DNA of 64,000 nucleotides, from the NCBI GenBank assembly GCA_021463865.1, contig JAJTXY010000006.1, positions 1-64,000 of the forward strand, written 5' to 3'. Positions within the stretch are counted from its first letter, which is position 1; each line of letters opens with the position of its first letter. Below, in pieces: positions 34,254 through 37,825 of the stretch. Made by a program: the position numbers and the translations under genes. The notes beneath the pieces were generated by a model. It was not told the DNA's origin. It saw only the letters and a program-made list of their open reading frames with translations, and searched no databases. This DNA comes from Anaerolineae bacterium. GTDB taxonomy: Bacteria > Chloroflexota > Anaerolineae > Aggregatilineales > J027.

Positions 34254-34916
34254 ATGGGTGGTGTTACGATTCAAGATGTTTTACTCCCGCAAGAGGGGCA
34301 AGTTATTTGGGACGGCCTAGTCTATGGCTTGCTGTTTTTTTCGCTCATCGCGCTTTTCATGCTGTCGCAGGGGTCTATGCGGGACACAATAATGATTTCA
34401 GCGGTGGTGATGTTTTGTATTCTGGATAAGACCTATGCGTGGGGTTATATTTTCAAGCCGGATGGGGTATATCCGGGGATGCCAACGGACTGCACCGTAT
34501 ATCCGAAAATCTGTGAACGCGACGTGCGGATTGAAGCCCATTTAGTGCATCTTGGCACGTATCTGATGCGGGTGTTGATGTTCTCATTCCCATTGGTGAT
34601 CGCAGGCCAAACCCGTGTTGGGAAAGCGCGTGTGTTGGCAGCACTCTTGGCGGTCTATGCTGGGGTCTATTCAGCGGCTCGCTGGTATTTTCAACAGCGC
34701 CACGCTGGTGGGGCGGTATTCATGATAGATTGGCTGGAGCCTCAGAATATTTTCCGAAGCTCCATGTTGGTCGTCGGTGTAGGCGCTTTAGCCCATCGCT
34801 GGTACCGCAATCGCTTCCGAAGCATAGACTGGGAGGCAGAAATGCTTGTAGGCGGGGTGCTGGCCTCGGACGACACTGAAATAGAGGTCACGCAGGGCAT
34901 GGACGTGCGGCCCTAG
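34254..34916 (+). CDS. Hypothetical membrane protein
   Basis: A 220-residue protein with about five hydrophobic helices, no signal peptide and no recognised motif. A Cys-containing loop (PTDCTVYPKICERDVRIEAH) lies between the second and third helices. ATG at 34254 is preferred over a GTG 24 bases earlier because AGAAGGGG is then correctly spaced. The last 43 codons overlap the 3' end of the convergent aminotransferase gene by 129 bases. Those residues form a polar tail after the last helix, so the true stop may once have been earlier. Confidence 0.55.
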   Translation: MGGVTIQDVLLPQEGQVIWDGLVYGLLFFSLIALFMLSQGSMRDTIMISAVVMFCILDKTYAWGYIFKPDGVYPGMPTDCTVYPKICERDVRIEAHLVHLGTYLMRVLMFSFPLVIAGQTRVGKARVLAALLAVYAGVYSAARWYFQQRHAGGAVFMIDWLEPQNIFRSSMLVVGVGALAHRWYRNRFRSIDWEAEMLVGGVLASDDTEIEVTQGMDVRP

Positions 34917-35744
34917 CTTGCCATTACCTACAGGCCGCTGATCTACTTCGGTGATGGCGGCCAATTGAACCCCAGTGCCACAGAAGAACGCCTCTTCCGC
35001 CACGTAAAATTCAGTGCGGTCAATGGGGCGTTCAATCACTTCTAGGCCCAATTCTTCGCGTACCAACTGCATAACCGTCATGCGGGTGATGCCTTCCAGA
35101 ATATCGGCATTGACCGGCGGCGTAATCACCTTGTTATTCCGAATAATAAACACATTTTCCGCACTGCCCTCGCCGATATGACCGGATTCGTCCAGCACAA
35201 TCGCTTCATCATAACCATTCATCAGGGCTTCGGATTTGATAAAGGCGGAGTTGATATAGGCTCCGGTAAACTTGCCACGTGCCGGAATCGAAATATCGCT
35301 GATGCGCCTCCAACTGCTGACCGCGACCTTGGTGCCTTCTTCATCACCGAGATAGCTGCCAAACGGGATGCTAAACATCGTGAAGTCGCCTTTGAGATCG
35401 TTTAGGCGTACCCCGATGACATTATCGGATTTATAGACCAGTGGGCGGATGTAGCAGTCTTGCCGGAAGCCTTCCGCTTGCAGCAGATTGAGCAGAATAT
35501 TCACCATGTCATCAATCGTATAGGGCAGATCAATGAGGAGCATTTTGGCTGAGGCAAGGATACGTTTGAAATGATCTCTGGGGCGAAACACATACAATTC
35601 TTCATCGGCTTCGTTCCAATATCCTCGCAGGCCACCAAACGCCCCAGTGCCATAATTGAGGGCGTGGGTCATGACACTGACTTTGGCTTCTTCAATCGGA
35701 ACAATCCGCCCTTCAAAAAATGCGTAACGGTTCTTCACGATCAT
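34788..35744 (-). CDS. ilvE: Branched-chain amino acid aminotransferase
   Basis: A 318-residue class IV PLP aminotransferase exchanging amino groups between glutamate and the keto acids of Val, Leu and Ile. The start YAFFEGRIVPIEEAKVSVMT is typical. The PLP Lys lies in ARGKFTGAYINSAFIKSEAL, followed by the signature DESGHIGEGSAENVFIIR and GITRMTVMQL. The C-terminus runs about ten residues beyond usual and overlaps a convergent gene. AAAAAGGAGA lies directly before the ATG. Upstream is a promoter and an Ile-rich leader ORF. Confidence 0.92.
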   Translation of the reverse strand: MIVKNRYAFFEGRIVPIEEAKVSVMTHALNYGTGAFGGLRGYWNEADEELYVFRPRDHFKRILASAKMLLIDLPYTIDDMVNILLNLLQAEGFRQDCYIRPLVYKSDNVIGVRLNDLKGDFTMFSIPFGSYLGDEEGTKVAVSSWRRISDISIPARGKFTGAYINSAFIKSEALMNGYDEAIVLDESGHIGEGSAENVFIIRNNKVITPPVNADILEGITRMTVMQLVREELGLEVIERPIDRTEFYVAEEAFFCGTGVQLAAITEVDQRPVGNGKLGPHVHALRDLYFSVVRGQHPAYKHFCLPVYASEAIAVPAMG

Positions 35745-35955: not shown

Positions 35956-37515
35956 TTACAGCGGAATGACGCGATGCGGCGGATTCCCCCGTTTGTTGGG
36001 TCGGGAGTTCTTGCGGCGGCGATTATTGGGAATGGCGGGAATAGCGGCAGGGGCGGCAGGGTCGTTTTCGGCATAAGGGAGATTAGATTGTACCGATACG
36101 GCGAGGCTATGCAGACGTTTAACGACTCGCGGTGCTTGTTCGGGTGGCAGGGCCAGCAAACAACAGGCGGGTGAACCATGCCCCAACGCCAGCAAATTTG
36201 CCCGTACTGATTTCACTGCTGTCAACACTTGCATGGTTTGTTGGACATCCACCACCCCAATCGCGGCGACAATGGCAATCGGTTCGACACGCCATTCGCC
36301 ATTGGGATAGGCTTCGGCAAAGGCTTCTTGTAAGGCAGCAAGGCTTTCTTGATTGGCGGTACGGCGGGCCGTCGTCGGGATGACATAACACAACAGATGT
36401 CCGGCATGGGCATTGACGGTAATCACGGGTGGGGCGGCTTGTAGCAGCACTTTTTCAAGCACTTGGCTGGCGAGGTCGGTCATAGAGGGCAAGCCGGGAG
36501 CACTGGGTACAGCGTTGGAGGGCGCGAACACCAATAGCCCTTCAATCGAAGTCACAGCGCTAAGATGTTTGGGTTTGCCCGCACTGGCGCTGTTGATGCG
36601 TGTACCGGGGTGGTCGGGGTTGAAGGTATTACACACCCGTAGCGGGATATGCGGACCCATGAGAGGTTCGACACAGCGCGGATGCAGCACCTTTGCGCCA
36701 AAATGGGCAAATTCACTGACCTCTTGATAAGAAATCATGTCAATGACTTTGGCTTCTTTGATCTTACGTGGATCGGCGGACATCACCCCATTTACGTCTG
36801 TCCAAATCCACACATCATTAGCATCAATCAGGCTGCCCAGATAGGTCGCGGAATAATCCGACCCCCCTCGCCCCAATGTCGTGATCTGGCCTTCAGGCGT
36901 CGCGCCGATATAGCCCGTCACGATAGGCACTTGTTTTTGTTCCAATAGCGGGCCGATGATTTTTTGGGCATTGGCACGCGATGGCGCAAAATCCGGTTGG
37001 GCGTTCTGAAAGCGGCGATCTGTCACAATAACCTTGCTGGCGTCTACGGGTTGGGCTGGGATGCCATTCACCCGCATAATCGCGGCTAGAATCCCGACCA
37101 TTAAACGTTCACCCATAGACATCGCGGCGTCACTCAATCGGCTGTCTGCCCCACCCGCAGATGCGATCTCCTCGCACGTCCCGAATAATTCTTCGAGCAG
37201 GCCGTCAATATGAACATCTACTTTATTCAGTTCATCGGCGTGATCGTGGATATTCATAAATTCTTGGGCGGCTTGTTGGTGGCGAGCACGCAACGCATCC
37301 AATTGATGTTTGACCCCGTGTGGGCCATTAAAATCGTGTTTGGTGGCGTGTTCGACCAACTTAACTAGCGAGTTCGTAATCCCACCAATGGCGGAGGTGA
37401 CGACCACCACGTTGTCCCATTTTTGGGTTTCTTTTTGGGTAATTTCCAAGACCTGTCGCACAGCATTGGCGCTGCCCACCGAAGAGCCGCCGAATTTCAT
37501 GACCAGTATCGCCAT
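35956..37515 (-). CDS. lysC: Aspartate kinase
   Basis: A 519-residue aspartokinase phosphorylating aspartate at the entry to Lys, Met, Thr and Ile synthesis. The N-terminal ATP/aspartate motif is MKFGGSSVGSANAV, and GRGGSDYSATYLGSLIDAND is the nucleotide-binding core. The C-terminal 170 residues carry the ACT-type regulatory region (VITVNAHAGHLLCY, SVRANLLALGHG). The last 35 residues are a Pro/Ala- then Arg/Asn-rich tail not typical of the family. AGGAG precedes the ATG. Upstream is an attenuator-like leader with a Thr/Met-rich ORF. In this window it stands alone, without asd or dapA. Confidence 0.92.
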   Translation of the reverse strand: MAILVMKFGGSSVGSANAVRQVLEITQKETQKWDNVVVVTSAIGGITNSLVKLVEHATKHDFNGPHGVKHQLDALRARHQQAAQEFMNIHDHADELNKVDVHIDGLLEELFGTCEEIASAGGADSRLSDAAMSMGERLMVGILAAIMRVNGIPAQPVDASKVIVTDRRFQNAQPDFAPSRANAQKIIGPLLEQKQVPIVTGYIGATPEGQITTLGRGGSDYSATYLGSLIDANDVWIWTDVNGVMSADPRKIKEAKVIDMISYQEVSEFAHFGAKVLHPRCVEPLMGPHIPLRVCNTFNPDHPGTRINSASAGKPKHLSAVTSIEGLLVFAPSNAVPSAPGLPSMTDLASQVLEKVLLQAAPPVITVNAHAGHLLCYVIPTTARRTANQESLAALQEAFAEAYPNGEWRVEPIAIVAAIGVVDVQQTMQVLTAVKSVRANLLALGHGSPACCLLALPPEQAPRVVKRLHSLAVSVQSNLPYAENDPAAPAAIPAIPNNRRRKNSRPNKRGNPPHRVIPL

Positions 37516-37547
37516 CGGGTATGTTCTCCTGCGTTTATATTTGGCCT

Positions 37548-37595
37548 ATATAGCAACAAACGCGACGTGGTTGAGAGTGCTTCACGTCGCGTTTG
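37548..37595 (-). terminator. Attenuator hairpin upstream of lysC
   Basis: On the minus strand, 37595-37583 (CAAACGCGACGTG) and 37569-37557 (CACGTCGCGTTTG) form a perfect 13-bp stem with a 13-base loop. The stem ends in GUUUG and is followed by UUGCU, so the U run is weak but present. It ends 41 bases before the lysC ATG and upstream of its ribosome site. It is probably the terminator arm of an attenuator. Confidence 0.65.
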
Positions 37596-37651
37596 TGGGA
37601 TTTCGTTTGGTTTAGAGACTCTAGGCTCTCACATCCTGCGACCTGAAGCAC
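37577..37651 (-). promoter_or_regulatory. Predicted antiterminator of the lysC leader
   Basis: On the minus strand, 37651-37638 (GTGCTTCAGGTCGC) can pair with 37590-37577 (GCGACGTGAAGCAC): 13 of 14 positions match, with a single G-G mismatch. The second segment covers the inner part of the terminator 5' arm and its loop, so the two structures exclude each other. The first segment lies in the last third of the leader ORF. A ribosome stalled at the upstream Thr/Met codons would leave it free and favour readthrough. Confidence 0.7.
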
Positions 37652-37689
37652 AACATGCCGGTACCCATACCGGTAGTCGAAGTCATCAT
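37621..37689 (-). CDS. Thr/Met-rich leader peptide upstream of lysC
   Basis: An ORF starting ATG at 37689 and stopping with TAG at 37623-37621: MMTSTTGMGTGM, then LCFRSQDVRA. A GTG at 37719 in the same frame would add MKTFGLICTI, giving 32 residues with six Thr, four internal Met and two Ile. Thr, Met and Ile are end products of the pathway that aspartokinase opens, as in the enterobacterial thr leader. No clear ribosome site is seen for either start. The evidence is the codon bias together with the mutually exclusive RNA stems downstream. Confidence 0.6.
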   Translation of the reverse strand: MMTSTTGMGTGMLCFRSQDVRA

Positions 37690-37768
37690 AATCGTACAAA
37701 TGAGGCCGAAAGTTTTCACAGAATATCAATCTCTGCTGAATATGGATTGGAAACAGAATAGCACAGCT

Positions 37769-37797
37769 ATTAGATGAACACAAGCAATTTGGGCCAA
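37769..37797 (-). promoter_or_regulatory. Possible lysC leader promoter
   Basis: On the minus strand, TTGGCC (37797-37792) and TCTAAT (37774-37769) are separated by 17 bases, matching 4/6 and 5/6 consensus positions. The implied start near 37762 lies about 43 bases before the GTG and 73 before the ATG of the leader ORF. Confidence 0.4.
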
Positions 37798-37825
37798 TTG
37801 GACAAACGTGCATGAAATCGCCTTA

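Follow-up and report, generated by a model that had tools for sequence, protein, structure and literature searches.

The aspartokinase gene lysC of this Anaerolineae genome is preceded by an element that is, with high confidence, a ribosome-mediated transcription attenuator of lysC and probably of ilvE as well. In the window, by which we mean the whole 64,000-nucleotide stretch that was analysed, lysC follows a leader ORF with a codon cluster matching the pathway, and a segment of this ORF pairs with an arm of the terminator hairpin in a mutually exclusive manner. The control codons are placed such that stalling would act on this pairing, for the window in a folding model and for recurring leaders on average. 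This anatomy, the alternative pairing, the recurrence of the arrangement and the stall geometry in the window were established by computation. What recurs is a combination of Thr and Met codons, joined by Ile in part of the leaders, those of this genus among them, and a Lys run is absent; this refines the Thr/Met/Ile code of the initial annotation. The attenuator would sense charged tRNA-Thr and tRNA-Met, in this genus perhaps also tRNA-Ile, and when threonine or methionine is short, these Chloroflexota would very probably make more of the enzyme that opens the aspartate pathway.

In the mechanism that we infer, RNA polymerase would start near 37748 and a ribosome would translate the leader. 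With charged tRNA-Thr or tRNA-Met (perhaps tRNA-Ile in the genus) scarce, it would stall among the control codons, and segment 37651-37638 would be free to pair with 37590-37577 during transcription; with the antiterminator paired, no terminator would form and lysC would be read. With the tRNAs charged, the ribosome would cover the segment, hairpin 37596-37556 would form and transcription would end after about 200 bases. This scheme predicts where transcripts start, that they actually terminate, that the leader is translated and how expression responds to each amino acid.

Architecture of the element

The element and the genes behind it consist of the following parts.

37755..37763 (-), candidate extended -10 element TGCTATTCT, read from the sequence
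37621..37719 (-), leader peptide ORF, GTG start with ATG 37689 as alternative; frame without indel in five genus members
37654..37695 (-), control-codon stretch, codons 9-22 (T I M M T S T T G M G T G M), from sequence and the recurrence of Thr and Met upstream of aspartokinases
37658..37673 (-), small palindrome CCGGTATGGGTACCGG, from sequence; paired in the MFE fold
37638..37651 (-), antiterminator strand GTGCTTCAGGTCGC within the ORF, 13 of 14 Watson-Crick pairs with 37590-37577, z -5.4
37577..37590 (-), antiterminator partner GCGACGTGAAGCAC, comprising the terminator 5' arm and part of the loop; pairs with 37651-37638
37556..37596 (-), terminator hairpin, 14 bp including a closing A-T, 13-base loop; from sequence, fold and hairpin finder
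37548..37560 (-), moderately U-rich tail TTTGTTGCTATAT, overlapping the end of the 3' arm; from sequence, too weak for the consensus scan
35956..37515 (-), lysC, aspartate kinase, 519 aa, the regulated gene; NCBIfam asp_kinases TIGR00657, 296.9 bits (cut-off 208.7)
34788..35744 (-), ilvE, branched-chain aminotransferase, next same-strand gene; TIGR01122, 311.5 bits (cut-off 245.55)

The leader ORF runs from GTG 37719 to TAG 37621 (-), opens 204 bases 5' of lysC and encodes MKTFGLICTIMMTSTTGMGTGMLCFRSQDVRA in 32 codons, among them six for Thr (at 3, 9, 13, 15, 16 and 20), two for Ile and four for internal Met. The hairpin arms CAAACGCGACGTG and CACGTCGCGTTTG form a perfect 13-bp stem (37595-37557), and 40 bases separate the hairpin end from the lysC ATG at 37515. 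The 32-codon, six-Thr leader from GTG 37719, the perfect 13-bp hairpin upstream of lysC and the 14-base segment pairing at 13 positions had all been described in the initial annotation; each was confirmed, the last with none of 200 shuffles as strong. Folding of the whole leader gave a z of -2.53, 2 of 200 shuffles being equally good. The palindrome 37658-37673 is a possible pause hairpin, judging by its sequence.

A consensus promoter scan called nothing at 37755-37763. The nine bases of the -10 candidate are identical in G004 and G007, with variants at approximately the same distance in G001-G003, and would place the transcript start near 37748. The overlapping 92-aa ORF (37813-37535, -), which is open and longer than the leader ORF, could be read as the real gene, with the leader frame spurious; it crosses the hairpin, however, and its counterpart in G001 is 80 aa long and bounded differently on both sides, whereas the leader frame is intact in 5/5 genus members, and we give this reading practically no credence.

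A consensus terminator scan (loop of at most 8 bases, 5 T in 8 required) found none at the window hairpin, which it missed because of the 13-base loop and the only moderately T-rich tail. The putative terminator of the window combines a perfect 13-bp stem with a moderate U-tract, and many relatives have a hairpin followed by a T-run. The leader could instead act on translation, stalling opening or hiding the lysC ribosome-binding site, for which the weak U-tract of the window may be cited; translational control by leaders exists in general. However, the hairpin ends 40 bases from lysC, away from the AGGAG, and the T-runs after hairpins in many relatives are a mark of intrinsic termination. We regard translational control as improbable and retain transcription attenuation as the reading of the element.

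The lysC protein has a single match at E<=0.001, its own, in the source genome (97% complete), and the named sequences closest to it come from Chloroflexi and Anaerolineae metagenome assemblies, e.g. CFX5 and CFX10. ilvE is the probable operon partner: it lies 3' of lysC in the window genome, in G009 and in G007, where lysC is split with its start on one contig and the remainder on another. In groups f28 (G170, G205) and f34 (G236, G176), asd (aspartate-semialdehyde dehydrogenase) lies 3' of the aspartokinase; the leader of G176 is too weak for the survey rules given below.

Conservation in the genus and family

The family search covered ten genomes, the window's included. Leader, segment and hairpin are kept in 4/4 other genus members, with the leader frame intact in all five. 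Nine leader codons vary in amino acid within the genus. In the window, six of them encode Thr, Ile or Met; five of these six are confined to the same three residues throughout the genus, and the sixth is Asn in one member. Conservation at the genus level says little, since the leader region is nearly invariant there.

Three other family members (G005, G007, G009) have an orthologous lysC. In G005 (lysC 57% identical) the leader ORF contains ISTTIMMTTGTGMGCSSHVVLMCFLS, in G007, which belongs to another genus, MMQIQLSMTLTTTTTTKGMGTGCTPCVVASLS; a hairpin with six consecutive T comes after each ORF, and its sequence differs from that of the window hairpin. Their segment duplexes do not pass the 5% mark, with 26/200 (G005) and 18/200 (G007) shuffles equally strong. 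G009 keeps a hairpin with a fair tail and has a poorer leader (MYLEMCQATPTMQATSPCWEKSFASLDG, 3 Thr) that fails both survey rules. G006 and G008 have different aspartokinases, without leader. The initial annotation had asked whether relatives lack both the Thr/Met codons and the complementary segments. This is not so: all four genus members keep them, in G005 and G007 a Thr/Met leader precedes a hairpin of new sequence, G009 has a hairpin with a poorer leader, and in the class the arrangement precedes aspartokinases of other families and orders.

Survey of aspartokinases across wider taxonomic ranks

Upstream regions of aspartokinases from the order, the class and the phylum were oriented and their starts set by the N-terminal motif (n=142). 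Two of the source searches contributed their best 30 loci each; 40 upstream stretches were hand-picked from listed matches, followed by 20 lower-scoring f2 copies. Nine loci without the N-terminal motif (L117, L182, L185-L189, L194, L201) were left out of the 142; a set of 149 regions, used with a looser rule, regained seven of them, with L117 and L194 still absent. L014 (start on another contig, L037 in its place), L047 (contig edge), L038-L041 (duplicate G003, G004, G001 and G002 contigs) and L050-L053 (broken pieces or duplicates) were not entered. Under the strict rule, a pair of residues had to fill 7/12 codons of an ORF followed by a terminator hairpin, and all 190 residue pairs were counted. 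Hairpins were located with our own finder, as the consensus scan is too strict for the 13-base loop; its thresholds were set by us and applied identically to shuffled sequences.

Met plus Thr was the commonest of the 190 pairs, with 36 of the 142 regions, followed by Gly plus Thr with 13. Ten dinucleotide-shuffled sets of all 142 regions yielded no Met plus Thr leader, with or without the terminator requirement. Because shuffling also destroys hairpins, which were present in 69 real regions vs 4 to 8 shuffled, the fair comparison is that of the counts without terminator: 36 real vs 0 shuffled under the strict rule and 46 real vs 1 to 6 per shuffled set under the looser Thr/Met/Ile rule. With the terminator, the looser rule found leaders in 41/149 regions vs one match across the ten shuffled sets. 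That a short ORF happens by chance to lie in a conserved spacer beside an unremarkable hairpin could be argued from the near invariance of the region within the genus, where conservation is uninformative; this reading is set against 36 real Thr plus Met leaders vs none in ten shuffled sets of 142, and against recurrence in several families and orders, and we consider it extremely unlikely. The same recurrence, e.g. 36/142 regions vs none shuffled, supports the ribosome-sensing attenuator first proposed in the initial annotation.

By group, leaders under the looser rule were found in 7/10 f1, 7/14 f4, 3/3 f28 and 5/7 f34 regions, and in three of the five records of named relatives of lysC. In the f2 family they preceded none of 25 first aspartokinase copies and 16 of 21 second copies; among the 11 f2 genomes with both copies sampled, eight second copies and no first copy carried one. 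The f2b count represents no blind sample, since f2 copies were added after L093 had shown a leader; the labels f2a and f2b denote match rank, with which the tree described below agrees for its 6 and 14 rows. Under the looser rule no leader was found in f8 (0/11), the remaining sampled families of the class or 18 regions outside the class. As gene controls, ilvB (0/30), thrC (0/28) and hom (0/9) had none under the strict rule, and under the looser rule ilvB had none, hom none and thrC one (G006). A regulon shared with hom and thrC in this genus was rejected, both genes being without leader there.

Pairing of the segment with the hairpin

The segment duplex of the window has an energy of -27.1 kcal/mol (z -5.4; 0/200 leader shuffles as low). 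For individual leaders, the duplex was in the best 5% of their own shuffles in 15/36. The segments and hairpins of 29 non-redundant leaders were compared all against all, with the assignment permuted 5000 times: the energies of own segment-hairpin pairs total -483.6 kcal/mol vs -388.4 (sd 13.3) permuted, with 0/5000 permutations as low. Covariation in related lysC upstream regions, named in the initial annotation as a check, thus came out in favour of own pairs. Pairing with the loop and 3' arm shows a smaller own-pair excess (z -4.1, 0/5000 permutations as low).

The 5' arm pairing is weaker in f2b, where most leaders are weak for it. In the f2b loci L164, L166 and L171-L174, the 3' part of the leader favours the loop and 3' arm over the 5' arm (z -2.6 to -4.5), as it does in L162 (f2b; z -2.7). 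Such pairing possibly represents a different switch topology in f2 second copies.

Modelled effect of ribosome position

For modelling of a stalled ribosome, approximately 30 bases were masked under it and the transcript folded up to the hairpin loop. In the window, upstream pairing of the 5' arm stayed at 0.77 for all ribosome placements between codons 2 and 20 inclusive, fell to 0.41 at codon 22 and lay at 0.05-0.34 over codons 23-29; the six Thr codons precede this switching point. Antiterminator pairing rose again at codons 30-31 (0.54, 0.64), and was 0.19 at the last codon and 0.29 at the stop. In the full-length transcript the terminator was favoured (0.98-0.99) at every ribosome position, and the antiterminator also formed in the ribosome-free intermediate (0.77). 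The switch would therefore have to be kinetic, and because the ribosome-free intermediate forms the antiterminator, translation of the leader would be needed for termination. In G001, G005 and G069 the full-length terminator drops at early ribosome positions.

Upstream pairing was higher with the ribosome at Thr/Met codons than at the last ten codons in 29/36 leaders, and in 23/29 non-redundant leaders (Wilcoxon 5e-4). Group means, Thr/Met vs last ten codons, were 0.75 vs 0.42 for f1 (3 leaders), 0.74 vs 0.54 for f34, 0.65 vs 0.46 for f28 and 0.58 vs 0.42 for f4; in f2b (13 leaders) the effect was weak (0.65 vs 0.61). Within the genus, G000 and G004 showed a strong effect and G002 an intermediate one; G003 (0.58 vs 0.55) and G001 (0.52 vs 0.49) showed almost none.

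Comparison with known regulators

A metabolite riboswitch or T-box, with the ORF incidental, is a rival reading. Lysine riboswitches act on lysC elsewhere (PMC2659441, in the part of the article available), and one Anaerolineae genome has a SAM riboswitch 5' of its aspartokinase (L103). The Rfam scan of the window, however, returned no family over threshold, a lax scan of 37500-37800 gave only four weak matches, all to unrelated families, and the covariance models for the Lysine riboswitch (RF00168), SAM (RF00162) and T-box (RF00230) had no match in the window lysC leader; lysine, SAM and T-box elements were rejected there on this ground. The solution other than a lysine riboswitch envisaged in the initial annotation agrees with the lack of an RF00168 match. 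In 20 further loci, most with leaders, the single Rfam match was SAM in L096 (4153-4268), beyond the two genes and outside the leader, and Thr_leader (RF00506) matched neither the window nor these loci. As the recurring feature is in-frame codon content, we consider a riboswitch or T-box very unlikely, and the element is discussed further as a ribosome-mediated attenuator.

The SAM riboswitch of G241 (L103:1299-1439; RF00162, 72.2 bits) lies directly 5' of the aspartokinase in a leaderless family; judged by this match, it would agree with Met being sensed in the control of aspartokinase.

Attenuation by leader peptides is textbook knowledge, most of it from Proteobacteria, Actinobacteria and some Firmicutes. 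The closest known system is the thr attenuator of E. coli (thrL), which likewise has a Thr-rich leader, an antiterminator and terminator, and a first gene with an aspartokinase; the codons read in thrL of E. coli and related bacteria are those for Thr and Ile. Here, in contrast, the gene is a stand-alone aspartokinase and not thrA, Met is as prominent as Thr, ilvE or asd lies 3' of the aspartokinase, the phylum is another, and RF00506 has no match. The lysine riboswitch RF00168 also acts on lysC via leader RNA, whereas the signal here would be borne by codons, for Thr and Met and not Lys; the SAM (S-box) riboswitch RF00162 is also a Met-linked control and uses an aptamer, whereas the window would have a translated-leader design. 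In Streptomyces lividans, a metL leader with several Met and Thr codons has been proposed before metN (PMC8079986). It shares the short Met/Thr leader; there the gene is for a transporter and the phylum is another, the authors see no typical Rho-independent terminator, and the accessible part of that article yielded no comparative test.

Leader attenuators of Actinobacteria and Firmicutes belong to the same mechanism class outside Proteobacteria, and those in the portions available of these reports sense other amino acids (PMC1262725, PMC2965389, PMC9413887). The accessible text of PMC1262725 gives no conserved RNA structure 5' of threonine, lysine or methionine operons in Actinobacteria. According to the section available of a 2010 survey, none were known outside Proteobacteria and Actinobacteria before its own his leaders, with ermC set aside (PMC2965389), and a 2013 survey, in the part available, suggests that attenuators of the Rfam type may have a gamma-proteobacterial origin (PMC3766115). 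A search of the open-access literature, covering titles and abstract openings with most subscription papers outside it, found neither a Thr/Met leader of an aspartokinase nor an attenuator study in Anaerolineae. What appears to be new is the phylum, the stand-alone aspartokinase, the dual Thr/Met code and the occurrence before two aspartokinase lineages; the mechanism itself is classical. A conserved attenuator in the largely uncultured Chloroflexota would give leader-peptide attenuation a wider range, and a Thr plus Met code would make an enzyme at a branch point responsive to two end products together, Met serving as a stall signal.

Descent of leader and gene

In a tree of 81 aspartokinases, 27 of them labelled with a leader under the strict rule, nine label changes were counted, at least seven of which are forced by well-supported branches; the number is inflated because the strict rule scores weaker leaders as absent. 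The aspartokinase of the window groups with the leaderless f2 first copies and f8, apart from the leader-bearing f4 and f2 second copies. Grouping f1 with f4 (AU p 0.002) or with f2b (AU p 0.0007) was rejected, in tests in which long branches meet and the groups were named after the tree had been seen. The leader arrangement, as read from the sequences, is hence not tied to one aspartokinase lineage and precedes two; this would reflect either replacement of the gene behind a persisting leader or more than one origin of the leader. TTGMGT is common to f1 and f4 leaders. The lineage of the window lysC is divergent from L016, L025, L026 and L203-L216 despite similar leaders.

A wider proposal, for which we see the balance as even, is that in Anaerolineae an undescribed dual Thr plus Met attenuator would be the standing control of the aspartokinase of the threonine/methionine branch. 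It would be bound to function and not to descent; its place before two deeply separated lineages would stem from exchange of the gene behind a retained leader or from several origins, and part of f2 would have shifted the segment from the 5' arm to the loop and 3' arm. The leader could also serve, at the sequence level, to assign each of two aspartokinases to its branch.

Leader-like ORFs upstream of other genes

Upstream of thrC in G006 (L134), a family member with a leaderless aspartokinase, the leader-like ORF MLSVRATTCTTTTVGC precedes a hairpin and T-run, together probably a Thr attenuator of thrC. In G038, the ORF upstream of ilvB (L240) has an Ile/Leu/Val-rich run (LLGILVLIVLIIGLL) close to its end and is followed by a terminator-like hairpin, and is a candidate branched-chain attenuator in the same order. 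Upstream of hom in G007 (L128), an ORF with a four-Ile run, which fails the survey rules, overlaps a weak terminator-like hairpin.
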